Positions 556 through 10,859 of a DNA stretch of 57,866 bases are shown piece after piece; positions within the stretch are counted from its first letter, which is position 1, and every line of letters starts with the position of its first letter. The notes under the pieces were generated by a model. The model was not told the origin of the DNA, did no database searches, and saw only the letters and a program-made list of their open reading frames with translations. Both the position numbers and the translations under genes were made by a program. This stretch comes from a virus. The DNA is taken from positions 1 through 57,866 of the IMG/VR virus record IMGVR_UViG_3300013014_000035. One strand, written 5' to 3'.

Positions 556-765
556 ATGCTCTATGGATTAATTGATGCTGCATACAAAGAAGGATATGCA
601 GCATACCCAGGTAAGGGACCATGTCCTTACTTAACTATTGATAATGATCCGGAACAAGTATCATTGGAAAAAGCTTGGTATGAAGGTTGGGATGCAGCAT
701 ATTCCGACGAGCTAGATCGCTATATGGAAGGCCTCAGTCGACTGAATGCCGATGCCAAAGATTAA
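556..765 (+). CDS. RMF-like small protein 2
   Basis: This 69-residue protein is the clearest RMF-like member here. It shows A-Y-K-E-G-Y-x-A, then G-x-x-x-C-P-Y, then W-Y-E-G-W-x-x-A-Y, which is the Gly-Tyr...Cys-Pro-Tyr...Trp-x-x-Gly-Trp framework of ribosome modulation factor. I chose ATG 556 because AGGAGG at 540-545 is correctly spaced for it; an in-frame TTG at 547 is too close. It lies just after the stop of the upstream RMF-like gene, so the two are co-transcribed from P2. It is more AT-rich than the preceding gene. A role in binding host ribosomes is inference from the family. Confidence 0.75.
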   Translation: MLYGLIDAAYKEGYAAYPGKGPCPYLTIDNDPEQVSLEKAWYEGWDAAYSDELDRYMEGLSRLNADAKD

Positions 766-835
766 CAACTTGTAATAATTTCCCTATTGACAACGGCCTC
801 TGGCCATGGTATAATCCACTCATAGACAAAGGGAT
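759..835 (+). repeat. 77-bp exact direct repeat, copy 1 (promoter cassette)
   Basis: Positions 759-835 are identical to 1805-1881. Each copy spans the end of a gene (including its TAA), the upstream TTAAC box, the whole promoter and the leader up to the ribosome binding site. The genes on either side are unrelated. Confidence 0.9.
787..815 (+). promoter_or_regulatory. Sigma-70 early promoter P3
   Basis: TTGACA (787-792), 17 bp, TATAAT (810-815). TTAAC lies exactly 25 bp upstream of the -35 (762). The spacer contains the inverted repeat GGCC-TCT-GGCC. Confidence 0.92.
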
Positions 836-842
836 GCATGAC

Positions 843-1226
843 ATGACCGTTACGACCTACACCTATGACGACCAGACCGTTTCCGACCTCCACAAGGATG
901 CCTATGGTACCCGGCCCGGCGCCAGGTTCATGCAGCTTTGGAAAGGTCTGAGCCCGGACGACAAGCAGGGCCTGTGGGAATCCATGTGCATCGAGCTTGA
1001 CCGCAAACAAGAGCGTGAGCGCGAGGGTTATGACTGCGCCTGGAGCTCCTGGATCGATCGGATGTTTGACCTCGCTATAGCGCAGGAAATCTCGGTCGGT
1101 GATGCCATACGTCGGCATGTGAAGGCTGCTGACGTGGGTGGCGACTATGGCTACTACTGCTTCCGTGAAGGCCTGTCCTACGATCGCGAGGCGTATATCA
1201 AGGCGACGGTTGAGTCTCAAGGTTAA
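843..1226 (+). CDS. Hypothetical early protein with DLHKDAYG-RP motif
   Basis: This 127-residue protein starts at ATG 843, eight bases after an AAAGGGA ribosome binding site; an ATG at 834 lies within that site. Near its N-terminus it carries V-S-D-L-H-K-D-A-Y-G-x-R-P, a motif I recognise from many small proteins of unknown function in unrelated phages. A charged helical middle (D-R-K-Q-E-R-E-R-E) follows. No catalytic motif is apparent. The gene is clearly GC-rich with host-like codons (CTG, CGC, GGC), in contrast to the AT-rich arrays further on. It has its own promoter (P3), and P4 follows directly after the stop. Confidence 0.8.
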   Translation: MTVTTYTYDDQTVSDLHKDAYGTRPGARFMQLWKGLSPDDKQGLWESMCIELDRKQEREREGYDCAWSSWIDRMFDLAIAQEISVGDAIRRHVKAADVGGDYGYYCFREGLSYDREAYIKATVESQG

Positions 1227-1247
1227 CACTTTGTAATAATTTCTTGG

Positions 1248-1276
1248 TTGACAACGGCCTCAGGCCATGGTATAAT
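1248..1276 (+). promoter_or_regulatory. Sigma-70 early promoter P4
   Basis: TTGACA (1248-1253), 17 bp, TATAAT (1271-1276). TTAAC at 1223 is 25 bp upstream of the -35 and contains the stop codon of the preceding gene. The spacer holds GGCC-TCA-GGCC. Confidence 0.92.
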
Positions 1277-1301
1277 CATTTTATAAACAGGAGATAGAGA
1301 C

Positions 1302-1529
1302 ATGGAACTTTTGGTTGTTGACTTTGGTGACTCCTACGACCGCTCGGTGGTGGGTGTGGCTCGTGACCTGGCTGAGGCCCGGGTGATGGCTCGAGCCTAT
1401 GTGGCCTCCGTGTGCTGGGAACAGCGCGTGTTGGACGGCCAGTACTTTGCCGTGCAGCGGCATGTGGTTGGTGAGGCTTCCGTCGCGTACGTCCAGGATG
1501 AAGAACTTGACCTGGACGTGGAAGGTTAA
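1302..1529 (+). CDS. Hypothetical small early protein
   Basis: This 75-residue protein starts at an ATG preceded by AGGAGATAGAG. It has a beta-like N-terminus, an Ala-rich helix around residues 22-38, a second strand region and an acidic C-terminus (E-E-L-D-L-D-V-E-G). No known family is recognised. It is GC-rich, forms a single-gene unit between promoters P4 and P5, and its TAA lies in the TTAAC box of the next cassette. Confidence 0.75.
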   Translation: MELLVVDFGDSYDRSVVGVARDLAEARVMARAYVASVCWEQRVLDGQYFAVQRHVVGEASVAYVQDEELDLDVEG

Positions 1530-1550
1530 CTCTTTGTAATAAATCTCTGG

Positions 1551-1579
1551 TTGACATTGGCCTCTGGCTATGGTATAAT
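1551..1579 (+). promoter_or_regulatory. Sigma-70 early promoter P5
   Basis: TTGACA (1551-1556), 17 bp, TATAAT (1574-1579). TTAAC at 1526 is 25 bp upstream of the -35. The spacer is a near-copy of P4 with one arm of the GGCC inverted repeat altered. Confidence 0.92.
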
Positions 1580-1604
1580 CACCATATAAGGAAAGGGATA
1601 CCAC

Positions 1605-1811
1605 ATGGCTCGCAAAACCGCTCGTGTCACTCAGGTCTGGACCATTCGGGAGGTTGGCTCCAACGGCTTCCTTGGCACTTATCGGACTTATACGGCTGAT
1701 CAGGCCATCCAGAAGTTCTGGGACGACCAGGCAGCCACTGCCGCTACTTTCCGCCGCTCTCAGCCGATGCGCAAGTTTGCAGTCACGGCCACTGTGGAAC
1801 CGGTAGATTAA
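1605..1811 (+). CDS. Hypothetical small basic early protein
   Basis: This 68-residue protein has a basic N-terminus and the strand-turn-helix pattern W-T-I-R-E-V...L-G-T-Y...Y-T-A-D-Q-A-I-x-x-F-W. That layout recurs in small phage proteins of unknown function. It is GC-rich and preceded by AAGGAAAGGGA. It is a single-gene unit between P5 and P6, and the 77-bp repeat copy 2 begins at its 3' end. Confidence 0.75.
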   Translation: MARKTARVTQVWTIREVGSNGFLGTYRTYTADQAIQKFWDDQAATAATFRRSQPMRKFAVTATVEPVD

Positions 1812-1881
1812 CAACTTGTAATAATTTCCCTATTGACAACGGCCTCTGGCCATGGTATAATCCACTCATAGACAAAGGGAT
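1805..1881 (+). repeat. 77-bp exact direct repeat, copy 2 (promoter cassette)
   Basis: Identical to 759-835. It begins in the last codons of the 1605 gene and ends at the ribosome binding site of the 1886 gene. Confidence 0.9.
1833..1861 (+). promoter_or_regulatory. Sigma-70 early promoter P6
   Basis: TTGACA (1833-1838), 17 bp, TATAAT (1856-1861). TTAAC at 1808 is 25 bp upstream of the -35. The promoter is identical to P3. Confidence 0.92.
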
Positions 1882-1885
1882 ACCG

Positions 1886-2272
1886 ATGAAGCTTTATCAC
1901 TCCATCTATCACTATCGTGGTTGCAACCAGCCTCGGACTCCTCGTGAGGTCAAGGATGCTGTCGAACGGGATGAATATGTCAAGATCGCCGTTGTGCAAT
2001 GCCATTCCATGGATGAGGCTTATGCGCTGACTCAGAACATCGATCAGCCATGGACTATGAACCCATGGGTGGAGATGCGACCAGTTCCCGGTCCTTTCAG
2101 GTCGACTATGCCTGGGGATATGATCTCGTGCTGTTACGAGGTTTACATTGTCGGCAATAGTGGATTCGTCTACCTGCCGCACAAAGCCTTCAAAGATCGG
2201 CAACGTGCCCGCCGTGCAAAGGCCATGGCTGAATTCGATCAGTACAACGCTCGCCGCCAAGCGGTAGGTTAA
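1886..2272 (+). CDS. Hypothetical early protein with LTQNID-W-N motif
   Basis: This 128-residue protein contains A-L-T-Q-N-I-D-x-x-W-x-x-N-x-x-V followed by R-S-T-x-x-G-D. I recognise this as a motif shared by many phage and plasmid proteins, usually written LTQNI...RSTSxGD; its function is unknown. Here the usual second Ser is replaced by Met-Pro. The C-terminus is a basic helix rich in Arg, Lys and Ala. It starts at ATG 1886 after AAAGGGA within the repeated cassette and is a single-gene unit under P6. Confidence 0.8.
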   Translation: MKLYHSIYHYRGCNQPRTPREVKDAVERDEYVKIAVVQCHSMDEAYALTQNIDQPWTMNPWVEMRPVPGPFRSTMPGDMISCCYEVYIVGNSGFVYLPHKAFKDRQRARRAKAMAEFDQYNARRQAVG

Positions 2273-2293
2273 CAATTTGTAATAATTTAGGCG

Positions 2294-2322
2294 TTGACAT
2301 CGACGTGTCGGCTTGGTATAAT
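2294..2322 (+). promoter_or_regulatory. Sigma-70 early promoter P7
   Basis: TTGACA (2294-2299), 17 bp, TATAAT (2317-2322). TTAAC at 2269 is 25 bp upstream of the -35. The spacer has a different inverted repeat, CGAC-GT-GTCG. Confidence 0.92.
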
Positions 2323-2347
2323 CATTTTATAAACAGGAGACATACAG

Positions 2348-2725
2348 ATGCCGAAACGTGAAACTGCCGCTGAACGCGAAGTCCGCTATGCCGAAGAAGC
2401 TCAAGCTGCATTGGCAAAGTTCGAAGCTGAAAAGCCTCTGCGGTTGCTTCGAGTTCTGGCACGTGCTCAAGTGCACGGGATTGCAACATATTTTTCTTAC
2501 GATGATGCAATCGATAATGCTAGCATAAAGATCGTGGGTCATGATTACGAGGTATATCTTGAATCTGATTATTATGGATTGGATGAATATAAATTCAGCA
2601 ATATTGAATATGAGCTGGATGCATTAGACGAGGAGTTGAAGGAAAAGCAACGACTGGCTGAGTTGAAGAAAGTGGCGCTGTCTAAGTTAACTAAGGAAGA
2701 ACAACAACTCTTGGGTCTCGTATAA
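2348..2725 (+). CDS. Hypothetical charged protein
   Basis: This 125-residue protein has a charged helical N-terminus (R-E-T-A-A-E-R-E-V-R), a central strand-rich part containing Y-F-S-Y-D-D-A and Y-E-V-Y-L-E-S-D-Y-Y, and a Lys/Glu-rich C-terminal coiled-coil-like helix. No family is recognised. Base composition shifts within the gene, from GC-rich at the start to AT-rich from about 2480, which hints at a recombination joint. The next gene begins 10 bp after its stop with an AAGGAGAT site, so the two form one transcript. Confidence 0.75.
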   Translation: MPKRETAAEREVRYAEEAQAALAKFEAEKPLRLLRVLARAQVHGIATYFSYDDAIDNASIKIVGHDYEVYLESDYYGLDEYKFSNIEYELDALDEELKEKQRLAELKKVALSKLTKEEQQLLGLV

Positions 2726-2735
2726 GGAGATAGCT

Positions 2736-2918
2736 ATGACCAACGTATCCACTATCATCGATCGCCTTCATGCCGCCGCCTGGGCATCAAAGAATGACCG
2801 GGAATCCAATTTCATCTCGGCTCTGGCTAACCGCCTCGAGCATCGGTCGTCCCTGTTCGAGAAGGATCTGACCAAAGTCGAGATTGCCATGATCAGCCGT
2901 TACGCGGGTCTGCAATAA
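2736..2918 (+). CDS. Hypothetical small protein
   Basis: This 60-residue protein follows a strong AAGGAGAT ribosome binding site. It looks all-helical, with a positively charged middle (R-L-E-H-R). The stop codon overlaps the next ATG (TAATG at 2916-2920), so it is translationally coupled to the small membrane protein downstream. Function unknown. Confidence 0.7.
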   Translation: MTNVSTIIDRLHAAAWASKNDRESNFISALANRLEHRSSLFEKDLTKVEIAMISRYAGLQ

Positions 2919-3085
2919 TGGCCCTCTCTGCAGACGTTGATTTCTCGGCTATTCGAATGCCATCTAGTGTTGTGTTCCTGCTGTTCGTGGCTATTATCAC
3001 TACAGGAATTACATTGACAACCATCTTTGGTCCTGCGCAATTGCCTCCAGGTTCAAAGCTCCAATGTGAGGTTGTGCCTCGCTAG
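2918..3085 (+). CDS. Small single-pass membrane protein
   Basis: This 55-residue reading frame starts at ATG 2918, overlapping the previous stop by one base. Residues about 17-35 form one hydrophobic segment (S-S-V-V-F-L-L-F-V-A-I-I-T-T-G-I) followed by a short polar tail with a single Cys. The predicted topology is one membrane helix. The tight coupling argues that it is real. Candidate roles for such early membrane peptides include exclusion or envelope modification, but nothing here decides that. Confidence 0.6.
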   Translation: MALSADVDFSAIRMPSSVVFLLFVAIITTGITLTTIFGPAQLPPGSKLQCEVVPR

Positions 3086-3110
3086 ATTAACTTTTTTAAT
3101 AATTTAATCG

Positions 3111-3139
3111 TTGACAACGGCCTCTGGCCATGGTATAAT
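3111..3139 (+). promoter_or_regulatory. Sigma-70 early promoter P8
   Basis: TTGACA (3111-3116), 17 bp, TATAAT (3134-3139). TTAAC lies 24 bp upstream of the -35. The spacer carries the same GGCC-TCT-GGCC inverted repeat as P3 and P6. Confidence 0.92.
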
Positions 3140-3162
3140 CCACTTCTAAACAGGAGATAAAC

Positions 3163-3603
3163 ATGACCGATTTTGAAAACGAAGTCCTGGCTATGATGTC
3201 CTTCAGAGAGCAGGATCTCCTGCTTCGTGTCTTGGCCTTGTCTTCTTGTCGTGAGGGTGCTATCGTCAGTCTGGTGGCTGGACGACTGCAGGACATGATG
3301 AATAGCGGTCTAATGGATCGCCTCTATCCGGAACTGGTTGATGCAGTCGAAGCGGAAACGGTAGTAGTGAAATCAAAGCCTGTCGAACCTGTGGTTACAC
3401 CTGAAGTGGTTACAACTACCACTTCTATGGAGGTTGGCGATATTGTTATTGCCAATTGGAATATTGCTAACACGCCTGGTCTGAACGGCGATGTTGTAAA
3501 GATCCTCGTATTTGAAGGTGATCAAGTTTGTGTCAAGCATCCGGGTGGTACAATTTCAGTTTTCAATGTAAAGAATCTTCGACCCATTCCAAAGGATTTT
3601 TGA
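3163..3603 (+). CDS. Hypothetical two-part protein
   Basis: This 146-residue protein has a helical N-terminal half (residues 1-65), a linker rich in Val, Pro, Lys and Thr (about 68-90), and a beta-rich C-terminal half. The C-terminal part (M-E-V-G-D-I-V, L-N-G-D-V-V-K-I, V-C-V-K-H-P-G-G) resembles a small SH3-like or KOW-type barrel by pattern only. It begins a run of closely spaced genes (3163 to 4833) under P8. Function unknown. Confidence 0.75.
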   Translation: MTDFENEVLAMMSFREQDLLLRVLALSSCREGAIVSLVAGRLQDMMNSGLMDRLYPELVDAVEAETVVVKSKPVEPVVTPEVVTTTTSMEVGDIVIANWNIANTPGLNGDVVKILVFEGDQVCVKHPGGTISVFNVKNLRPIPKDF

Positions 3604-3605
3604 TT

Positions 3606-3911
3606 ATGGTAAACCGTGAACGTATGATGTCCCCAAGGCGTATGGAAACTCTTGATCTAGATTATTCGACTCTGAGTAGCGCATTGGAGACAATCCAATG
3701 TCTCATTGACAAGTATGGTCCGGATGCTATGATCTGTGAATATGATGCAGATTATAGTGACAACAAATATTTGGCTGTATCTGTCAAGGTGCCCGAGACG
3801 GATCAGGAAATGGCCAAGCGTATTAGGGAAGAAGAGCGGTGGGAAGCCGACATGACTGCTCGTGATCGTGTAGAGTTTGAACGGCTCAAGGCCAAGTTTG
3901 GAGATAAGTGA
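3606..3911 (+). CDS. Hypothetical charged protein
   Basis: This 101-residue protein begins at ATG 3606, two bases after the upstream stop; a longer frame upstream would overlap the previous gene heavily and lacks a ribosome site. The middle reads like a strand-helix unit, and the C-terminal third is a highly charged helix (R-I-R-E-E-E-R-W-E-A-D). No family is recognised. It is the second gene of the P8 unit. Confidence 0.65.
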   Translation: MVNRERMMSPRRMETLDLDYSTLSSALETIQCLIDKYGPDAMICEYDADYSDNKYLAVSVKVPETDQEMAKRIREEERWEADMTARDRVEFERLKAKFGDK

Positions 3912-3913
3912 TT

Positions 3914-4135
3914 ATGACTGCGCTCGAATACGAAGAGGTAATGGCGAATTTTGACTTGTTGATTGTCCATGTACAAAAGCTCCGGACTGATTATAATAAT
4001 GATTATAATAAGCTTCAGGAGAAGTTCCGAACAGCTTGTTGGCTATTACGTGATGCTGCAGATACATTGGCCTGTATGGATGGTGCAAACTATCCACTGA
4101 ATAGTATTATGCAATTCCTAGAGGAGAATAATTAG
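3914..4135 (+). CDS. Hypothetical small helical protein
   Basis: This 73-residue protein is predicted to be mostly helical. A GTG at 3908 overlapping the previous stop is an alternative start; I prefer ATG 3914. Heptad-like spacing of Leu, Tyr and Phe in the first 45 residues suggests a helical hairpin or coiled coil. It is the third gene of the P8 unit, and its 3' end supplies an AGGAG for the next gene. Confidence 0.65.
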   Translation: MTALEYEEVMANFDLLIVHVQKLRTDYNNDYNKLQEKFRTACWLLRDAADTLACMDGANYPLNSIMQFLEENN

Positions 4136-4137
4136 TG

Positions 4138-4380
4138 ATGACTGATCGAGGAGACACCTACGGCGGTATATTCTGGGTACGTGCGACTGATGGTGGCTGG
4201 CATTCTGCAACCCCGGCCGAATCTTGTGATGAAATCAAGCGGTTGCGTGCCGAGAACATACGGCTACGGGAGTCTCTAACTAACGCTAGCTCTGAAACGT
4301 TTGACACAATTGTACACAACGGAATAGCAATGGAAAATCTACTTAAAATCATTAACGCTGCATTAGAGGTGAAACCATGA
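4138..4380 (+). CDS. Hypothetical protein with short coiled coil
   Basis: This 80-residue protein starts at ATG 4138 behind an AGGAG in the preceding gene. After a Gly/Trp-rich N-terminus it contains a coiled-coil-like segment (E-I-K-R-L-R-A-E-N-I-R-L-R-E-S-L). The 3' end overlaps the next gene by four bases (ATGA). Function unknown. Confidence 0.65.
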   Translation: MTDRGDTYGGIFWVRATDGGWHSATPAESCDEIKRLRAENIRLRESLTNASSETFDTIVHNGIAMENLLKIINAALEVKP

Positions 4381-4631
4381 ATGAATGCAAAGATTGTGAT
4401 CGGATGGACTGCCGTGCACGGGGCTGTATTGCACCTTGCTCTGATTTGGATTACAATAGCGTTTTAAAAGATCGCCTTTATCGGATTTCAGGCATGCCTA
4501 CCCGTACTACCTGGACTAGTGGTCCTATGCCACAGTCCATGGGTTGTATTTGTCCACCTACTAGTGAACAGACGTGTATGAATCCTCTGTGCCCTAGGAA
4601 GCCTATTGGTAAAGCTAATGATGTCACCTGA
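4377..4631 (+). CDS. Cysteine-rich small protein, probable zinc binder
   Basis: This 84-residue protein contains ten cysteines in two clusters: C-x2-C-x4-C-x4-C-x3-C near the N-terminus and C-x-C-x7-C-x5-C near the C-terminus. The spacing suggests two small zinc-binding units. The central part is Pro/Thr/Met-rich. It overlaps its upstream neighbour by four bases (ATGA) and its downstream neighbour by 14. Function unknown; phage zinc-ribbon proteins often contact nucleic acid or host polymerase, which is only a possibility here. Confidence 0.65.
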   Translation: MNECKDCDRMDCRARGCIAPCSDLDYNSVLKDRLYRISGMPTRTTWTSGPMPQSMGCICPPTSEQTCMNPLCPRKPIGKANDVT

Positions 4632-4833
4632 TCCTTATTGGTCTGGTTATGATGACTATAAGCGTGGTCGACATTTCGCGGACAATCCCTATAATTATGA
4701 CACTGACCTGAGTCTTCATCTGATGTGGGGAGAAGGTTATCTGAGTGCATATGAAGATGTCATGAAGAGAATTGAGGCTATTGGCGATCAAGCTCGTGGT
4801 CCTGAACGCCCGCCGCCTTGGCAGAATCCTTAA
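4618..4833 (+). CDS. RMF-like small protein 3
   Basis: This 71-residue protein has the RMF-like arrangement Y-W-x-G-Y-x-x-Y-x-x-G...N-P-Y...W-G-E-G-Y-x-x-A-Y, close in layout to the proteins at 368 and 556. Two adjacent ATG codons (4618 and 4621) are both possible starts. A Pro/Arg-rich tail ends the protein. It is the last gene of the P8 unit. Ribosome binding is an inference from family resemblance. Confidence 0.65.
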   Translation: MMSPDPYWSGYDDYKRGRHFADNPYNYDTDLSLHLMWGEGYLSAYEDVMKRIEAIGDQARGPERPPPWQNP

Positions 4834-4875
4834 CATTAGTTAATGGTACATTAACATTTTGTAATAAAATAATTG

Positions 4876-4904
4876 TTGACATTGACCAGGTTTTTTGGTA
4901 TAAT
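4876..4904 (+). promoter_or_regulatory. Sigma-70 early promoter P9
   Basis: TTGACA (4876-4881), 17 bp, TATAAT (4899-4904). TTAAC at 4851 is 25 bp upstream of the -35, followed by the usual TTGTAATAA. Confidence 0.92.
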
Positions 4905-4919
4905 AACCATATAAGGAAG

Positions 4920-4938
4920 GAAAGGCATAGGGCCTTTC
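4920..4938 (+). promoter_or_regulatory. 5' leader stem-loop
   Basis: GAAAGGC (4920-4926) pairs perfectly with GCCTTTC (4932-4938) around a 5-nt loop. It lies about 12 bases after the predicted start of transcription and before the ribosome binding site of the 4952 gene. It may stabilise the mRNA 5' end. Confidence 0.55.
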
Positions 4939-4951
4939 AGGAGACATTGAT

Positions 4952-5410
4952 ATGAACATCATTGAACGACTCGAAGAATTATATGCTCGCGCCAGGGATA
5001 GTGATAGTGTGACAATCCAAGATGCCATCAGGCTGATTGAACTCTATGACGATGCATTGCATACTATTGCTAAAGTGAATCCTAGCGCTAATGCTGCATT
5101 GTTGGATAATGTTGTCCATATGGTAAAAGATACTATTGCACTAGGTCAGCCACAATATTATCGATCTAAGAAGTCTCCTGAAGAAACCGTTGTAGATCTT
5201 AAGAAAATGGCATTTGATCGTAATCGCCATGGTAGCCTCTATGATCGTGGTAGTGCCGACAGTTATTACGAGAGAGAACGGTATCCTCATTGGTATCCGA
5301 ATGGTACTTATAATGGAGACTGTGTTCTTGCTGTAACTGAAGATGAAATTGCCGAATATATGGCTGGATATGATTGGAATGAAGAATTTGGAGACAAAAA
5401 GGGATGGTAA
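4952..5410 (+). CDS. Hypothetical protein with C-terminal RMF-like region
   Basis: This 152-residue protein has an all-helical N-terminal half. Its C-terminal half contains Y-D-R-G-S-A-D-S-Y-Y, then P-H-W-Y-P-N-G, then E-I-A-E-Y-x-x-G-Y-D. I recognise this layout as a common phage family that spaces Gly and aromatic residues much like RMF. It is translated from a leader with a stem-loop and strong GGAGA. The next gene starts inside its last codons (overlap at 5404-5410). The link to ribosome modulation is inference. Confidence 0.7.
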   Translation: MNIIERLEELYARARDSDSVTIQDAIRLIELYDDALHTIAKVNPSANAALLDNVVHMVKDTIALGQPQYYRSKKSPEETVVDLKKMAFDRNRHGSLYDRGSADSYYERERYPHWYPNGTYNGDCVLAVTEDEIAEYMAGYDWNEEFGDKKGW

Positions 5411-5622
5411 CTGCAACCAATGACGCGGCTTCATTCTCTCATAGAGATTTGTATGAGGAAGGTCGCGCCGCATATATTGATCTTGGTACGGCATGGATGC
5501 AGCCTAGGTACTATTTTACGCACGAAGAGTTGCTGGATTGGTGGAATTCTGTATATGAATGGGATGATGCTATGAAAGCGTGGGTTTATACACTAGAAGT
5601 ACAAAAAGCCCTAGAACGTTAA
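5404..5622 (+). CDS. Possible RMF-like small protein 4
   Basis: This 72-residue protein overlaps the preceding stop by seven bases. It contains D-L-Y-E-E-G-R-A-A-Y near the N-terminus and a Trp-rich second half (L-L-D-W-W-N-S-V-Y-E-W). This is weakly RMF-like and fits with the neighbouring RMF-like genes. It is the last gene before a strong bifunctional terminator/promoter element. Confidence in the reading frame is higher than in the family. Confidence 0.6.
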   Translation: MVTATNDAASFSHRDLYEEGRAAYIDLGTAWMQPRYYFTHEELLDWWNSVYEWDDAMKAWVYTLEVQKALER

Positions 5623-5646
5623 CATAGGTTTATGATATGTTATAGA

Positions 5647-5666
5647 GATATGATTTACATCATATC
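5647..5666 (+). other. Perfect 8-bp stem-loop
   Basis: GATATGAT (5647-5654), loop TTAC, ATCATATC (5659-5666). It lies in the gap between the 5404 gene and the terminator. No T-run follows, so it is not itself a typical terminator. It could be an RNA processing or stabilising hairpin. Confidence 0.6.
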
Positions 5667-5670
5667 AAGA

Positions 5671-5715
5671 AACCCGGTTTTGTTAACTTAATTGTTGACA
5701 GGTGCCGGGTTTTTT
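5671..5715 (+). terminator. Terminator hairpin that contains the next promoter's -35 box
   Basis: AACCCGG (5671-5677) pairs with CCGGGTT (5705-5711). Inside it GTTAAC (5682-5687) pairs with GTTGAC (5694-5699), allowing one G-U. A T-run (5710-5715) follows. The -35 of promoter P10 (5695-5700) forms part of the inner stem. Confidence 0.75.
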
Positions 5716-5723
5716 GTTATAAT
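5695..5723 (+). promoter_or_regulatory. Sigma-70 early promoter P10
   Basis: TTGACA (5695-5700), 17 bp, TATAAT (5718-5723). It drives the first EDL array and overlaps the terminator at 5671-5715. Confidence 0.92.
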
Positions 5724-5745
5724 AAGACTATAGGAGACACGGAGA

Positions 5746-5931
5746 ATGCGTAATATTACAACTATTCGTTCTGTACCAAATGATACAGCTAATGATCTAG
5801 TGTGGAAAGAAGCGCGCGGGAAAGGTGTCCATTGCGTGATAAACGCTCGGAATGAGTTGGGTTATCAAGTTACAATAGATATCAGAGAACCTATATTGGA
5901 TCAATTTGCAGAAGATTTAGATGATGTCTGA
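5746..5931 (+). CDS. EDL-array protein 1
   Basis: This 61-residue protein is the first of a tandem family. It has a variable N-terminal two-thirds and ends R-E-P-I-L-D-Q-F-A-E-D-L-D-D-V. The closing motif (D-Q-x-x-E-D-L-x-x-V) recurs in the following genes. The final codons GATGATGTCTGA contain the start codon(s) of the next gene. It is translated from a GGAGA site after P10. The family is not one I recognise; size and acidity would fit host-factor-binding early proteins, but function is unknown. Confidence 0.75.
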   Translation: MRNITTIRSVPNDTANDLVWKEARGKGVHCVINARNELGYQVTIDIREPILDQFAEDLDDV

Positions 5932-6109
5932 AGTTACTATGTTGATGATAGATTCAATTCATCATTCACTCGATACGTATCTTGATGCATTATCCGAGGA
6001 AGTACTTGTAGGTGTGACTCTAGGTCCTGTTAGTGATCAAATTGCACTTCAATTACGATATAACCTTCATGATCAGATATATGAGGATCTAGATGTCAAT
6101 TATAAATGA
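5921..6109 (+). CDS. EDL-array protein 2
   Basis: This 62-residue protein starts within the last codons of protein 1 (ATG 5921 or 5924; the second matches the M-S-E start of other members). It ends H-D-Q-I-Y-E-D-L-D-V-N-Y-K, so the motif is followed by a few extra residues because the reading frame continues 17 bases into the next gene. The N-terminal part is hydrophobic and acidic without recognised motifs. Confidence 0.72.
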   Translation: MMSEVTMLMIDSIHHSLDTYLDALSEEVLVGVTLGPVSDQIALQLRYNLHDQIYEDLDVNYK

Positions 6110-6278
6110 AATTAGGCTTCAAGTCAGAATTCAAGCCGGTCATAAGCTCCATGAACCCGAAAGTATTTCTTTAGAGATTTGGGGTGAAGCATATGTTATT
6201 CAGGAAGATGCTGTGCATTTACTTATTATGAATCGTATAATTGCAGATCAGATAGATGAAGATCTAGAAGATGTCTGA
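6093..6278 (+). CDS. EDL-array protein 3
   Basis: This 61-residue member ends I-A-D-Q-I-D-E-D-L-E-D-V. It starts at ATG 6093 inside the preceding gene, with the ribosome site GAGGATCT formed by the codons of that gene's E-D-L. Its own E-D-L codons again serve the next gene. No other motif is recognised. Confidence 0.72.
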   Translation: MSIINEIRLQVRIQAGHKLHEPESISLEIWGEAYVIQEDAVHLLIMNRIIADQIDEDLEDV

Positions 6279-6462
6279 AACTAAAATTCCAATTTATTAT
6301 GGTCCATATAATAAGGTTCGGAGTCAAATAAGACCTCTAATAGATAGTAATATATGGTATACGATTTATCTTGCGACTCATCATAATATTTTTCAAATTT
6401 CAGATATACAAGTTAGAGAACCAGTTAAAGATCAAATGGAAGAGGATCTAGATCTTGTCTAA
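6271..6462 (+). CDS. EDL-array protein 4
   Basis: This 63-residue member begins ATGTCTGA, an eight-base overlap with the upstream stop. It ends V-R-E-P-V-K-D-Q-M-E-E-D-L-D-L-V, closely matching the end of protein 1 (R-E-P...D-Q). The body is Tyr/Ile-rich. Its last codons replace the usual GATGTC with CTTGTC, so the next gene must use TTG. Confidence 0.72.
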   Translation: MSETKIPIYYGPYNKVRSQIRPLIDSNIWYTIYLATHHNIFQISDIQVREPVKDQMEEDLDLV

Positions 6463-6649
6463 GAATATACGATATATAATAAAAAGCCAGTGTGCAGAAG
6501 AAGCCTCGGGTAGAACATGGGATACTACAGATGATGGTACCATGCGCCATATAGCATTAAATATACGTATGGATCTGAATGGTCGTATTCATAGACCGGT
6601 AATGGATAATGTGTTTATACAAGTGGATGAGGATTTACGAGATGTCTAG
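6455..6649 (+). CDS. EDL-array protein 5 (TTG start)
   Basis: This 64-residue member appears to start at TTG 6455, at exactly the place where other members have ATG. The next in-frame ATG would remove nearly half the protein. A GAGGATCT ribosome site precedes it. It ends F-I-Q-V-D-E-D-L-R-D-V and overlaps the next ATG (GATGTCTAG). A weaker start may lower its level relative to its neighbours. Confidence 0.68.
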   Translation: MSKNIRYIIKSQCAEEASGRTWDTTDDGTMRHIALNIRMDLNGRIHRPVMDNVFIQVDEDLRDV

Positions 6650-6836
6650 AATTGTTGAACGGATACACACTGATGTATCAAATGCCGTCTGGAAACAAAC
6701 GGCAATGTCGATGATTGGCTTGGAAGTTCGTAATAAATTTTGGCTTGAACATTTTGTTGTAATTGAAGTTGAAGCTAGAATTGAAGATTATATGGTCAGT
6801 CAAGTTTATGAGGATTTGGAAAATGATGAATACTGA
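6642..6836 (+). CDS. EDL-array protein 6
   Basis: This 64-residue member starts at ATG 6642 in the ATGTCTAG overlap. Its interior contains D-V-S-N-A-V-W-K-Q and E-V-R-N-K-F, which resemble protein 9 (D-V-S-D-A-I-W-H-K...G-I-R-S-Y-V). It ends Y-M-V-S-Q-V-Y-E-D-L-E-N-D-E-Y. The GAGGA of its E-D codons precedes the ATG pair of the next gene at the correct spacing. Confidence 0.72.
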   Translation: MSRIVERIHTDVSNAVWKQTAMSMIGLEVRNKFWLEHFVVIEVEARIEDYMVSQVYEDLENDEY

Positions 6837-7053
6837 TGCTATTTGGTTAACATTAGGTGAATGTGGTTGGTATCATAAGACTTTTAATATAGTATATTCT
6901 TATACTGATGTTTTAACGCTCAGAGATATTCTACAGCAAGAAGCAAGAGAAGAAGGTGTTATGCTGAGATGTGAAATTTATACTGGTGGTATGTTTACAT
7001 CCGATACTAATATCACGATGTATGTTTGGTTGGTTCATAAACCATGGTTGTGA
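6823..7053 (+). CDS. MNTD-family protein within the EDL array
   Basis: This 76-residue protein (75 if ATG 6826 is used) does not carry the E-D-L ending. Its N-terminus, M-N-T-D-x-I-W-x-x-L-x-x-x-G, and the segment ending E-E-G-V-M-L-R match the protein at 71-295. It is inserted in frame-overlap style between EDL members 6 and 8. Function unknown. Confidence 0.7.
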   Translation: MMNTDAIWLTLGECGWYHKTFNIVYSYTDVLTLRDILQQEAREEGVMLRCEIYTGGMFTSDTNITMYVWLVHKPWL

Positions 7054-7208
7054 ATAAAATTCAAAACATGCGACATATTGACATAACTGAAATTTCTCCT
7101 TATGTACAATTTGCAGTCGGTGATAAATTGTTGCACGAATTTTTGCTTGTTTTGGTCCCATTAAAAGTACAAATAAAAGAAGATCTAAAAAATGTACAAA
7201 ATGACTGA
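7044..7208 (+). CDS. EDL-array protein 8
   Basis: This 54-residue member is easily missed because it is short. It starts at ATG 7044, overlapping the upstream stop by ten bases; ATG 7068 is an alternative. It ends P-L-K-V-Q-I-K-E-D-L-K-N-V-Q-N-D, with the family motif. The codons for E-D-L (GAAGATCTA) lie just upstream of the next ATG at 7192. Confidence 0.65.
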   Translation: MVVNKIQNMRHIDITEISPYVQFAVGDKLLHEFLLVLVPLKVQIKEDLKNVQND

Positions 7209-7389
7209 AACAGTGCGTAATATTATGGCGGATGATGTATCAGATGCTATTTGGCATAAAACTCATAATATGTTTGCTGTTGGTATTCGAAGTTATGTGA
7301 TTCGTCATGTTGAACCAGCATTCATAGATGACATTTATACGTTACTCGATGAACAAATCAAGGAAAATCTAAATTATGAAGATTATTGA
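7192..7389 (+). CDS. EDL-array protein 9
   Basis: This 65-residue member starts at ATG 7192 (7201 is possible) and ends D-E-Q-I-K-E-N-L-N-Y-E-D-Y, with Asn replacing Asp in the motif. The internal D-D-V-S-D-A-I-W resembles protein 6 and the second-array protein at 10208 (D-D-V-E-D-A-I-K), so these three form a closer subgroup. Confidence 0.7.
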   Translation: MYKMTETVRNIMADDVSDAIWHKTHNMFAVGIRSYVIRHVEPAFIDDIYTLLDEQIKENLNYEDY

Positions 7390-7555
7390 TGTACTTTTGA
7401 GTCATGTATTGTATGATTCTATGCGCGAATCACATAAATCTGTTAGAAAAAACGTTCGATTTATGACATATGCTAGGTTGCAAATGCCAATTTATGATAG
7501 ATTGTCCAATATAAGCTTAGAAAATCAGATTGCAGAAGATATTAACGAAAATTAA
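7376..7555 (+). CDS. EDL-array protein 10
   Basis: This 59-residue frame starts at ATG 7376 inside the previous gene and ends L-E-N-Q-I-A-E-D-I-N-E-N. It is the last member of the first array, and no overlapping gene follows, yet the Q-x-x-E-D pattern is kept. That argues the motif has a protein role besides housing a ribosome site. Its TAA is part of a TTAAC box upstream of the next promoter. The body is Arg/Ser-rich and more basic than the other members. Confidence 0.65.
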   Translation: MKIIDVLLSHVLYDSMRESHKSVRKNVRFMTYARLQMPIYDRLSNISLENQIAEDINEN

Positions 7556-7566
7556 CAAATTTTTTG

Positions 7567-7595
7567 TTGACATTGTGATCAAAATTTGATATAAT
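7567..7595 (+). promoter_or_regulatory. Sigma-70 early promoter P11
   Basis: TTGACA (7567-7572), 17 bp, TATAAT (7590-7595). TTAAC lies 15 bp upstream of the -35, ten bases less than the usual 25. Confidence 0.9.
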
Positions 7596-7621
7596 CATCT
7601 TATAGACCAAGGAGATATACT

Positions 7622-7957
7622 ATGGATGTTCTATCAGCTTATGTGACACGTATGCGTGATAAAGCAACAGAAAATCAATTGAGTCATGATCAGGTTCCGC
7701 CTCTGGTTTGCCGTGATGGGCTCAAATTGTCAGTTCAAGCGAGTTCTTCTCACTATTGTGAGCCAAAAAATCACGTTGGTCCATGGAAATCGATGGAACT
7801 TGGCTTTCCTAGTAAACCGGTCCCTGAATTGCGACAATGGCGTGAGGATCTAGGAGATGATTCTCCGGATGAAGAATGTGTTTTTGGATGGGTTCCCGTT
7901 GATATGCTATTGAAAACCATTGAAAAGCATGGTGGGTGTGATCAACTCGAAGAGTAG
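7622..7957 (+). CDS. Hypothetical protein
   Basis: This 111-residue protein starts behind AAGGAGATATACT. It is rich in Pro, His and Trp in the middle (S-S-H-Y-C-E-P-K-N-H-V-G-P-W) and acidic near the C-terminus (E-D-L-G-D-D-S-P-D-E-E). No family is recognised. It is a single-gene unit between P11 and P12. Confidence 0.7.
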   Translation: MDVLSAYVTRMRDKATENQLSHDQVPPLVCRDGLKLSVQASSSHYCEPKNHVGPWKSMELGFPSKPVPELRQWREDLGDDSPDEECVFGWVPVDMLLKTIEKHGGCDQLEE

Positions 7958-7990
7958 CCATAAAATTAACATTTTGTAATGATTTTTTTG

Positions 7991-8019
7991 TTGACACAAC
8001 CATCAAAGTTTGTTATAAT
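7991..8019 (+). promoter_or_regulatory. Sigma-70 early promoter P12
   Basis: TTGACA (7991-7996), 17 bp, TATAAT (8014-8019). TTAAC at 7966 is 25 bp upstream of the -35. The -10 region and leader resemble those of P15. Confidence 0.92.
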
Positions 8020-8044
8020 AACTTTATTAACATAGGATTGTGAT

Positions 8045-8455
8045 ATGCAACTCCCCACCGAAGGTTCAGTCGTAGAGATTATATTGGACAATGCTGCAGC
8101 ACGTTATGCTATGGCTCCGTGTTCAGTGCATAGGGCACAACCTACATTGACTCTTCGTGGGGTTGTTGTACCCACTCCTAAGTGGATGACTTCTGTTGCC
8201 GATCTTACTATTCTAAATAGTGAGACCAAAGGCTTTAATTATATCCCTAGACACAAGATCTTGACTATTGGTGGTGTTACGGTAAAACAACCGAAGGTCA
8301 CTGCAGACAAGGTCTTAAATATGACTTCATCTAAAACTGGCGAAGTCTATACTGTGCGACAAGATGGTCGTACTAAACGTTGGTCGTGCACTTGTATTGG
8401 ATTTCAATTCCATAAGAAGTGCCGACATGTAACAAAAGCTATGGAGAATAAATAA
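8045..8455 (+). CDS. Small protein with C-terminal SWIM-type zinc finger
   Basis: This 136-residue protein ends with a likely SWIM zinc finger: W-S-C-T-C-x-G-F-x-F-x-x-K-C-R-H-V, that is C-x-C-x(n)-C-x-H. SWIM fingers bind DNA or protein partners. The N-terminal 80 residues look like a small beta-rich domain, and a basic stretch (T-V-R-Q-D-G-R-T-K-R) precedes the finger. It is co-transcribed with the 8455 gene (TAATG overlap). A nucleic-acid-binding or regulatory role is likely but not specified. Confidence 0.75.
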   Translation: MQLPTEGSVVEIILDNAAARYAMAPCSVHRAQPTLTLRGVVVPTPKWMTSVADLTILNSETKGFNYIPRHKILTIGGVTVKQPKVTADKVLNMTSSKTGEVYTVRQDGRTKRWSCTCIGFQFHKKCRHVTKAMENK

Positions 8456-8703
8456 TGGCTATTACAGATACCGAAACATTCCGTGCTCTTGTCACGCAAG
8501 GACCAACTGTTATTATGGTCGAAAAGACACATATGTTGGCCTTGCTAGATGAACGAGATGAACTTCGTGATGCCCTTGTTAATATGTTAATGGTTCTTGA
8601 CTGTGCACACCAAGCAAGCGGATTCATCTCGACTGGTCATATGACAGACACAGAGAATGCTCTCACTAAAACAAAAAACATTTTGTTCAAAAATAACCCT
8701 TGA
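8455..8703 (+). CDS. Hypothetical small helical protein
   Basis: This 82-residue protein overlaps the previous stop by one base. Residues 25-45 form an amphipathic helix with repeated Leu, and the C-terminus is Lys/Asn-rich. No family is recognised. Its stop overlaps the -35 box of promoter P13. Confidence 0.65.
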   Translation: MAITDTETFRALVTQGPTVIMVEKTHMLALLDERDELRDALVNMLMVLDCAHQASGFISTGHMTDTENALTKTKNILFKNNP

Positions 8704-8727
8704 CTTTTTACTAAAACCATATATAAT
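8700..8727 (+). promoter_or_regulatory. Sigma-70-like promoter P13
   Basis: TTGACT (8700-8705), 16 bp, TATAAT (8722-8727). It departs from the others in its -35 and spacer length and lacks the TTAAC box. The -35 overlaps the stop codon of the preceding gene. Confidence 0.8.
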
Positions 8728-8737
8728 AACATAACCA

Positions 8738-8751
8738 GGGCAATGTCGCCC
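8738..8751 (+). promoter_or_regulatory. 5' leader stem-loop (GGGC...GCCC)
   Basis: GGGC (8738-8741) and GCCC (8748-8751) form a short GC-rich hairpin close to the predicted start of transcription. An almost identical element lies in the leader of the 10860 gene. Confidence 0.55.
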
Positions 8752-8774
8752 ATTTATACCAAGGAGACTATATT

Positions 8775-9137
8775 ATGAAGATTATGCGTAACATGGCTGC
8801 TCAGGGTGACTTCATTATCCTGCGTATTCAGAATATCCCCGAGGGTGTTGTTCCTGTTGCTCCTGAGAATGGCAAGGTAATTGTCGCTCACAGTGAAACT
8901 GGGCACAATCACGTGATGGAAGCAACTCGAGTCGAGGCATTCGAAGTTCCTGCTGATAAGTCCAACTCTCAGAATGTTGACTTGTACAAGATGTTCCTTC
9001 TTGTCAAGGAAGACACTCAGATTGACCATCTTCGGTCTTTCGATACTCACGAGGCTATTATGGTACCGCCCGGTATGTATGAGGTTCGCCGTCAACGCGA
9101 ATATACCGCCGAAGGTTTCCGTAAGGCGGCTGACTGA
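8775..9137 (+). CDS. Conserved phage/plasmid protein of unknown function
   Basis: This 120-residue protein is beta-rich, with H-S-E-T-G-H-N-H-V at residues 39-47 and P-P-G-M-Y-E-V-R-R-Q-R-E-Y near the C-terminus. I recognise this combination from phage and plasmid proteins often found near DUF932 genes. The His-rich loop could bind metal (cupin-like), but that is only a guess. Codon use is strongly biased (CTG, AAG, GTT, ACT), and the gene has a strong AAGGAGA site and a leader hairpin, so it is probably highly expressed. Confidence 0.78.
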   Translation: MKIMRNMAAQGDFIILRIQNIPEGVVPVAPENGKVIVAHSETGHNHVMEATRVEAFEVPADKSNSQNVDLYKMFLLVKEDTQIDHLRSFDTHEAIMVPPGMYEVRRQREYTAEGFRKAAD

Positions 9138-9196
9138 TCTTTGATCTAGGTTTTATTTTTAGAAGCTTTCCACTTATATAATGTAAAGGTGATAAT

Positions 9197-10063
9197 GTGA
9201 TTACTAGTTTGAATGAAGACCAACTGGCGCAAATTCCCGTGTATCGGGACCGCTGGTTGGAAATCGGTCTTCGTACTGAAGTTCTTGACTTTGCTGCAGC
9301 TAAGACTGCTCTTGCAAAGTGCTACACCTCCCGTGATCTTGAATCACCTTCTAATGTTTATTATGCTACTGGACCTATGGATGCCTACAAGATCTATAAG
9401 TCAGTAAAGCCTGGCGGTACTTCTACCGAATTCATGAACTCTATGATCTATGGCGCTCATGATAGTTCTTGGTTGAGTTTCTATGCTTACTTTAAGGAAG
9501 TCTGTGGTCTGGATCTGGAGATTGTCCAGCCACTGATTGAATATGCCCAAGTTGCTTGCTGGACTTATGTCGACAAGGACTTTGCTATTATTCAAGAGTT
9601 CCCGATGTATATCCGATTCGATGATCAGAATCGTCTGCATTGTGAAGATGGTCCTGCCATTGAATATCAAGATGGTACCATGGTGTTTGCATGGCATGGT
9701 GTTCGTCTGAGCCGTGACAAGTGGTTCTGGATCACCAATAAGCAAGAGTTGTCTGCTAAGGCAGCCCTGAAGGAAGACAACTTGGAACTCCGCCGAGTTG
9801 CCTGTGAAATTCTTGGTTGGGTCCATATTCTTAAGGAACTGAAGTCTAAGGTTATTGATCAGGATGAAGATCCGCAGATTGGTACTCTTCTGCAGGTGAA
9901 TATTCCTGATATCGGTAAGGAACAGTTCCTGCGTGTTGTTTGTGGTACTGGTCGTGAGTTTGCTATTCCGGTGCCGCCTACTGTCAAGACCGCGTTGGAA
10001 GCAAATGCTTGGACCTATGGTGTTGATCCCGAGGTGCTTCGAGACTTGGAATTCCGTACTTAG
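9197..10063 (+). CDS. DUF6745-like protein
   Basis: This 288-residue protein contains R-L-H-C-E-D-G-P-A-I-E-Y-x-D-G-T...W-H-G-V (about residues 148-170), the hallmark of DUF6745-type proteins in phages and plasmids. Function is unknown. The start is GTG 9197: the overlapping ATG at 9195 is followed at once by a stop, while AAAGGTG lies upstream. A helical N-terminal half includes S-W-L-S-F-Y-A-Y-F. It is probably co-transcribed with the 8775 gene and ends before a clear terminator. Codon use is biased like that of its neighbours. Confidence 0.78.
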   Translation: MITSLNEDQLAQIPVYRDRWLEIGLRTEVLDFAAAKTALAKCYTSRDLESPSNVYYATGPMDAYKIYKSVKPGGTSTEFMNSMIYGAHDSSWLSFYAYFKEVCGLDLEIVQPLIEYAQVACWTYVDKDFAIIQEFPMYIRFDDQNRLHCEDGPAIEYQDGTMVFAWHGVRLSRDKWFWITNKQELSAKAALKEDNLELRRVACEILGWVHILKELKSKVIDQDEDPQIGTLLQVNIPDIGKEQFLRVVCGTGREFAIPVPPTVKTALEANAWTYGVDPEVLRDLEFRT

Positions 10064-10090
10064 TTTATAAAACATATTGAGTTTAACTCG

Positions 10091-10124
10091 GAGGGTGGTA
10101 TTAAGGTTATCACCCTCTTTTTTT
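10091..10124 (+). terminator. Rho-independent terminator
   Basis: GAGGGTG (10091-10097) pairs with CACCCTC (10111-10117), and a run of seven T follows. It ends the 8775-9197 transcript. Confidence 0.85.
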
Positions 10125-10137
10125 GTGCATTTTTTTG

Positions 10138-10166
10138 TTGACAGTGATATATGGTTGTGTTATAAT
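10138..10166 (+). promoter_or_regulatory. Sigma-70 promoter P14
   Basis: TTGACA (10138-10143), 17 bp, TATAAT (10161-10166). It drives the second EDL array and has no TTAAC box; a terminator occupies that position. Confidence 0.9.
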
Positions 10167-10207
10167 CAGTAATGACAAAATGTGAATAATATAAAAGGAA
10201 TATAAAA

Positions 10208-10405
10208 ATGTATAGTAAAATGTATAGTCAAACTATAGTTGATATAATGGATGATGTTGAAGATGCTATTAAGACAAAGGTTAGGAAACAAGTAGCATAT
10301 CATAACTTTATGGAAGTTTTTGAACTTAGACATATTGGTCAGATACTCGATTGCGAGTTCCATATTAGAGAACAATTTATGGATGATGTAGAAAATGAAA
10401 GTTAA
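10208..10405 (+). CDS. EDL-array 2, protein 1
   Basis: This 65-residue protein follows AAAGGAA. It contains D-D-V-E-D-A-I, like members 6 and 9 of the first array, and ends H-I-R-E-Q-F-M-D-D-V-E-N-E-S, a variant of the family motif with D-D-V. Its last codons contain the ATG of the next gene (10395). Confidence 0.72.
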   Translation: MYSKMYSQTIVDIMDDVEDAIKTKVRKQVAYHNFMEVFELRHIGQILDCEFHIREQFMDDVENES

Positions 10406-10559
10406 AGATATTATCTTTCCACTATCGACATGGAATATTAGAATTATTGCTGACAATCAAATCAAAAGTCAAGTTTACGACCATAATAAAGTATTATATG
10501 ATCTTATGTTGTATGTTCCACATATTCATGAACAACTCAGAGACGATTTAGATGATTAG
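10395..10559 (+). CDS. EDL-array 2, protein 2
   Basis: This 54-residue frame starts at ATG 10395, overlapping the upstream gene by 11 bases, and ends H-I-H-E-Q-L-R-D-D-L-D-D. It has the same length and overlap habit as the first array. The GATGATTAG end supplies the ATG of the next member. Confidence 0.68.
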   Translation: MKVKDIIFPLSTWNIRIIADNQIKSQVYDHNKVLYDLMLYVPHIHEQLRDDLDD

Positions 10560-10740
10560 TTTATTCGTCTATCATCTTTATTCAAGAAAAGAATGTGAAT
10601 CTAAAACTAATAACGAAGTAAAATATCTTATTTCTGAAAAAGTAAGAAACGGACTTCTTGATCTGGAAATGTATTCCAAAATAAGACGTGCAGCTTGGAT
10701 GGAAGTTAACCATCAATTCATAGACGATCTCAAAGATTAA
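10552..10740 (+). CDS. EDL-array 2, protein 3
   Basis: This 62-residue member starts at ATG 10552 in the upstream stop region and ends V-N-H-Q-F-I-D-D-L-K-D. It is the last in its array and still carries the motif. The body is Lys/Glu-rich and probably helical. A TTAAC follows the stop, 35 bp before the next -35 box. Confidence 0.68.
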   Translation: MISLFVYHLYSRKECESKTNNEVKYLISEKVRNGLLDLEMYSKIRRAAWMEVNHQFIDDLKD

Positions 10741-10781
10741 AAAAAGTTAACAAAAAAGTTTTGAAAACCGTAATTTTTTGG

Positions 10782-10810
10782 TTGACATTACCCCCAAAGT
10801 TTGTTATAAT
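10782..10810 (+). promoter_or_regulatory. Sigma-70 promoter P15
   Basis: TTGACA (10782-10787), 17 bp, TATAAT (10805-10810). TTAAC is 35 bp upstream of the -35, one helical turn more than the usual 25. Confidence 0.92.
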
Positions 10811-10823
10811 AACTTTATTAACA

Positions 10824-10836
10824 GGGCATATCGCCC
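10824..10836 (+). promoter_or_regulatory. 5' leader stem-loop (GGGC...GCCC)
   Basis: GGGC (10824-10827) and GCCC (10833-10836) flank a 5-nt loop near the predicted start of transcription. This is the counterpart of the hairpin at 8738. Confidence 0.55.
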
Positions 10837-10859
10837 ATCATATGAAAGGTTTTTTTATA

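Follow-up and report, generated by a model that had tools for sequence, protein, structure and literature searches.

A bipartite upstream element at a fixed distance from the -35 hexamer in early promoters of an uncultured T4-like virus

Results

We analyzed the early promoters of a 57,866-base virus fragment (IMG/VR record IMGVR_UViG_3300013014_000035, positions 1 to 57,866; hereafter, the window), with a focus on a TTAAC box upstream of their -35 hexamers. The window encodes a gp32-like single-stranded DNA-binding protein, a gp59 helicase loader, a gp33 late coactivator, a gp2 end protector, and baseplate wedge and hub proteins, and by these predicted families the genome belongs to the T4 superfamily. 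The genome is incomplete, and all sequences used here are metagenomic fragments, except for the cultured phages included for comparison. Neither the first 12 kb of the window nor the consensus promoter cassette had a DNA-level match among 50,697 cultured-phage records.

Exact TTGACA-N17-TATAAT promoters occur 16 times in the window, all on the plus strand and all within the first 13.7 kb, versus none in a reversed control. TG is present at -15/-14 (TGn) in all 10 window promoters that carry the element described below, and this combination of sigma70 hexamers, 17-bp spacer, and TGn is that of a T4-type early promoter. We also read related contigs rich in early promoters (G005, G006, G008, and G009), with a few promoters added from G003. 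The resulting family set holds 76 promoters, window included, chosen regardless of the element; their independent origins are fewer than their number. Like the early promoters of the cultured Acinetobacter phage Acj61, the family promoters have a G at -36 and TGn.

Most early promoters of this T4-like virus bear a second fixed signal, starting 25 bp before the -35 hexamer. Of the 15 perfect window promoters that could be tested, 8 have a TTAAC that starts at position -60, exactly 25 bp ahead of TTGACA; P1 was excluded because its upstream part is lost at the window start. The boxes begin at 762 (P3), 1223 (P4), 1526 (P5), 1808 (P6), 2269 (P7), 4851 (P9), 7542 (P11), and 7966 (P12), against a mean of 0.01 expected from dinucleotide shuffles of the window's upstream regions. 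Across the family set, the box lies at -60 in 37 of 76 promoters. The fixed spacing is a real observation. The original prediction, made from the sequence alone, had named all of these boxes except that of P11, as well as a spacing of 24 bp at P8 (TTAAC at 3087), and each of those positions was confirmed.

TTAAC is not the whole motif, however: the element is bipartite, with TTAAC as its left arm. This element comes in two interchangeable versions, TTAAC-N3-TTGTAATAA and TTAAC-AAAA-GTTAAYAA, and the version can differ between phages for orthologous genes. Better conserved than TTAAC is the right arm, TAAYAA at -49 to -44, which is locked to the -35 hexamer; the left arm can shift by one base, as it does in P8 and in CTAACG-type variants. 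Conservation in the 76 unselected promoters was 1.12 bits/bp for the right arm, 0.69 for the box, 0.01 just upstream, and 0.25 for the spacer between the hexamers (14 bases, -29 to -16); one further positional profile was selected on the right arm, and none of these values comes from it. The original prediction that the box is followed by TTGTAATAAT fits most cassettes but not all.

The element occupies an AT-rich island from -60 to -40 (about -41), with an AT fraction of 0.80 at -60 to -37 versus 0.47 immediately upstream. A/T tracts are found at -55 to -52 in 36 to 38 of 55 elements and at -45 to -42 in 51 of 55, with centers near -53 and -43, one helical turn apart, and the block at -53 to -50 covaries with the element center. 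The one-turn periodicity is thus internal to a single element. We rejected a cryptic promoter within the element, composed of a -35 (TTAACA) and an extended -10 (TGTAATAAT), because the two are wrongly spaced and there is no TG in the GTTAAYAA variants. As a separate observation on the core promoters, short inverted repeats (GGCCTCTGGCC, TCGGTACCGA, and GGCCATCCGGCC; for example, at 793-809) occur in 22 of 47 unique -35/-10 spacers, versus 7.6 expected from shuffles.

The original prediction had also placed TTAAC at 15 bp in P11 and 35 bp in P15 and read 15, 25, and 35 as one box moving by full helical turns. This series was not borne out. The P11 copy at 15 bp (7552) exists, but it is the second half of TTAACGAAAATTAACAA, whose overlooked first TTAAC lies at 25 bp, and all eight copies at 15 bp in the family sit in elements whose left arm begins 25 or 26 bp from the -35, such as GATTAACAAAAGTTAACAAATC. 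A single set of orthologous promoters (that at 10782 and its counterparts, before a DUF932 gene) accounts for TTAAC at 35 bp, and the rest of the element is absent there. Two further offsets have other explanations: the TTAAC at 12 bp is part of the P10 terminator stem (5666-5716), and that at 55 bp from the promoter at 10138 precedes a terminator. A helically phased, movable box is rejected on these grounds; the whole box does not shift by full turns.

Within the window, the element is restricted to a subset of equally perfect promoters, as 5 of the 16 have none (5695, 10138, 10782, 12169, and 13642, the last being a tRNA promoter). All features given here are on the plus strand. At P3, the element spans 762-778, with the left arm at 762-766 and the right arm, TAATAA, ending at 778, ahead of a TGn-containing core promoter at 787-815. 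The same arrangement is found at P4 (element 1223-1239, core 1248-1276), P5 (1526-1542, core 1551-1579), P6 (1808-1824, core 1833-1861), P7 (2269-2285, core 2294-2322), and P12 (7966-7982, core 7991-8019). The P9 element (4851-4867, core 4876-4904) is entirely intergenic, the preceding gene ending with a stop codon at 4831-4833. The P11 element (7542-7558, core 7567-7595) is the two-TTAAC version and has the stop codon in its right arm.

Three promoters depart from this pattern. P2 carries the variant CTAACACATATGTAATAA (292-309, core 318-346), with a left arm CTAAC at 26 bp. In P8, the left arm is one base nearer (3087-3102, core 3111-3139); its counterpart in G006 has the 25-bp form, with near-identical flanks and a similar gene start downstream. 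P1 retains only a right-arm remnant, AATAA, at 1-5 (core 14-42), truncated by the window start, and its counterparts in G006 and G009 have the full element. Two segments are not elements: the P10 terminator hairpin that overlaps the -35 (5666-5722) and P15 (10747-10810), whose TTAAC lacks a right arm.

Several other features of the early region stood out. The P10 hairpin (-28.5 kcal/mol, z -7.8) ends in a U run and spans the -35, so that the segment looks like the terminator of the upstream genes combined with the promoter of the next gene, an arrangement kept in G005, G006, and G008. About 13 short overlapping open reading frames (54 to 75 amino acids) at 5746-7555 and 10208-10740 differ in sequence but mostly share a similar acidic tail (DQ..EDL.DV), and these are possibly diverged tandem paralogues. 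Several early leaders have a small stem-loop between the expected start site and the Shine-Dalgarno sequence (4914-4939 and 10823-10837). A 69-amino-acid early protein (556-762) weakly resembles the ribosome modulation factor RMF (Pfam E value of 0.0003, below the curated cutoff), which makes it a possible ribosome-targeting takeover protein.

The element might have no function of its own, if cassettes had spread by duplication or gene conversion, with TTAAC retained because its stop codon ends the preceding gene, and with a spacing fixed by descent. Gene conversion or recent copying does occur, judging from the P3 and P6 cassettes, which are near-identical over about 75 bp. In the family, 24 of 58 cassettes also have the upstream stop codon in the box, and TAA is lost only where the stop lies elsewhere; in the window, the box holds it in 6 of 10 cassettes, whereas the original prediction had this as usual. 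However, the stop codon rides on the element and does not explain it, because TAAC is retained in 18 of the 23 cassettes whose gene ends upstream, and the other five keep TTAC. We therefore rejected the stop codon alone as an explanation. Recent copying alone is disfavored as well: in the same cassettes, the spacer has diverged while the element (0.69 to 1.12 bits/bp) has not, and when promoters were grouped by spacer, 28 of 34 clusters kept the element. Orthologous genes retain an element even though both spacer and element version change, and a divergent sister group bears one at the same place. An origin by copying and descent without separate function is thus strongly disfavored, and we consider it improbable.

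In this sister group (L035, L038, L047, L148, and L220), the same place is occupied by a perfect palindrome, GATTACAAATTTGTAATAA, with TTAC at the same -60. This dyad is 16 bp long, nearly invariant, and centered at -53.5, with a mean of 6.2 of 7 positions paired, and it precedes many different genes. The major capsid protein of the sister-group contig G011 is nearest to those of Stenotrophomonas phage DLP6 (76%) and Methylophilales phage Melnitz (70%), with Sinorhizobium phages also near, so the host is likely proteobacterial. Compared with cultured phages, the sister cassette gave only short matches, mostly to the -10 and leader and mainly in Acinetobacter T4-like phages.

We scanned all viral contigs for TTAACNNNTTGTAATAATTT without requiring a promoter. 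Related contigs held 12 copies, each of them 25 bp from a downstream sigma70 promoter, whereas none of about 66 copies in other viral contigs has a promoter (at most one mismatch) nearby. Nine relaxed matches in related genomes outside the early region (L294 to L297) have no promoter. Among 84,980 bacterial and archaeal genomes, the exact motif with a -35 occurs once, at a spacing of 26 bp, which is about the chance expectation by our estimate; because of this, the motif in its exact form is not a common host regulon site, and we rejected that candidate. We also dropped a cyanobacterial RpaB/HLR1 site, as no psbA was found and the capsid of the relative is nearest to those of the proteobacterial phages named above.

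Other phages gave separate observations. GTAATA occurs at the same offset in unrelated phages (L027/L041, L044, L062, L074, and L080), at about 6 of 25 versus 3 of 38 at neighboring offsets, a hand count that is suggestive and that we do not count as significant. In L099 (3826), L116, and L091, TGTAAY is repeated at 11-bp spacing directly 5' of TTGACA, resembling WalR/PhoP-type boxes. A longer palindrome, GCAACATTACAAATTTGTAATAATGCAA, is repeated upstream of short genes in L203, L207, and L213, about 30 bp before a TTGCAT-like -35, and is probably an operator of those phages' own.

Discussion

The bipartite element has a fixed position, is conserved next to a diverged spacer, is limited to a subset of early promoters, and contains two A/T tracts about one turn apart, all as read from the DNA. 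The likeliest reading, to which we give about an even chance, is that it would serve a T4-style early promoter as its UP-type module and be contacted from a single face of the DNA. T4 early promoters have been described as UP/-35/TGn/-10 (PMC2988021), the UP region is the contact site of the alpha C-terminal domains of RNA polymerase (PMC2613000), and the early promoters of T4 relatives are A-rich at -40 to -44 (PMC1524935). The AT-rich segment found here covers the region, about -60 to -40, that such a module occupies. TTAAC would then be the outer half of an upstream element that completes the promoter, and the alpha C-terminal domains of the host polymerase may bind both A/T tract sites from the same face. 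Such contact could help host-takeover genes win polymerase right after infection, and the conserved framing bases, TTAAC and GTAAT/GTTAA, may make the UP module of this lineage more sequence-specific than that of E. coli. The original prediction had proposed a protein on one DNA face or an UP element for alpha; the proposal stands as the best reading, although the spacing series offered in its support does not.

Several results weigh against an UP-type module. We scored the promoters with the E. coli UP consensus and register, which we take to be nnAAAWWTWTTTTnnnAAAnnn. In its own register, the consensus is not matched by the window family above composition (6.95 versus 6.82 shuffled, z 0.6; distal subsite, z 0.8; proximal subsite, z 3.4), and the best fit, found post hoc, lies 3 bp upstream of that register. 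The 18 early promoters of Acj61, used as a positive control, match in register with a z of 7.5, and the sister group matches above composition but more weakly (z 4.8); this sister-group match, and the clear UP element that Acj61 has in the same slot, speak in favor of an UP-type module. Against it, conservation is higher in the framing TTAAC and GTAAT than in the distal A/T tract, where about 17 of 55 elements have an interruption (GCTTT, TCTTT, and AACTT). DLP6, the closest cultured relative by capsid protein, has no such promoters and no element, and known UP elements are less specific than the almost invariant 16-bp palindrome of the sister group. The element, then, has the position and gross makeup of an UP element, with its conserved bases in the framing TTAAC/GTAAT and not in the A/T tracts.

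Because the E. coli consensus is unmatched in its own register, an operator stays a serious rival, although its probability is well short of even. A dimeric, sequence-specific protein of phage or host would read TTAAC and GTAAT/GTTAA as half-sites spaced by one turn, 5' of the polymerase, and activate, or later shut off, the host-takeover promoters. The nearly invariant dyad of the sister lineage before many different genes fits this, as do half-sites better conserved than the center and the absence of the element from other, equally perfect promoters. T4 itself shuts off early transcription even when modA is deleted, by a mechanism still unknown (PMC2988021). The symmetry is inconsistent, however, with the window family scoring 4.7 of 7 as a direct repeat (period 10) versus 4.0 of 7 as a dyad, and left and right arm types combine freely around a left arm that floats by one base. 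A Pfam scan of about 20 early-region proteins of this incomplete genome, which did not cover every early open reading frame and would miss a host protein, found no DNA-binding early regulator, and the single match among bacterial and archaeal genomes also speaks against such a site. A tentative and rather doubtful proposal is that the element may be the operator through which a novel regulator, of phage or host, marks the host-takeover subset of early promoters in a lineage of T4-superfamily phages and times their activation or shutoff.

The A/T tracts might instead act without any base-specific reader, as phased tracts that curve the DNA and wrap it around polymerase. Their 10-bp spacing would suit this, but there are only two tracts, and the distal one is absent in about 30% of elements, TTAAC/GTAAT being retained. 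We regard curvature as highly improbable and retain the UP-type module as the preferred reading.

These results define, for a group of uncultured T4-like phages, a second promoter element that is nearly invariant and common to many unrelated small early genes. A pattern search for such gene sets becomes possible, since every copy in the related contigs marked a promoter. It also makes testable an open question in T4: what, beyond consensus hexamers, lets early promoters outcompete host promoters and then switch off as a class. Within a single genome, some perfect promoters carry the element and others do not, which amounts to a natural experiment.

Response-regulator boxes (OmpR, PhoB/PhoP, WalR, and cyanobacterial HLR1) are 10- to 11-bp repeats of half-sites such as GTTACA/TGTAAT upstream of the -35. 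The element shares with them half-sites about one turn apart in that location, a likeness that serves as a lead only. Like the rrnB P1-type UP element of E. coli, it is AT-rich, lies at -60 to -40, and has two subsites one turn apart; it differs in not matching the consensus in register and in its conserved C and G positions and TpA steps, which are atypical. The early promoters of T4, RB69, RB49, Aeh1, and 44RR resemble those of the window in their strong sigma70 core, extended -10, G conserved immediately 5' of the -35, and conserved AT-rich upstream region, and likewise each serve one or a few small early genes. Their -35 is GTTTAC in place of TTGACA, and their logos have not been described with a defined bipartite TTAAC/GTAAT motif. 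Acj61, also T4-like, matches the E. coli UP consensus in register without the TTAAC/GTAAT framing, and it shares with the window family the G at -36 (in 17 of 18 promoters), TGn, TATAAT, and A-tracts in the UP slot.

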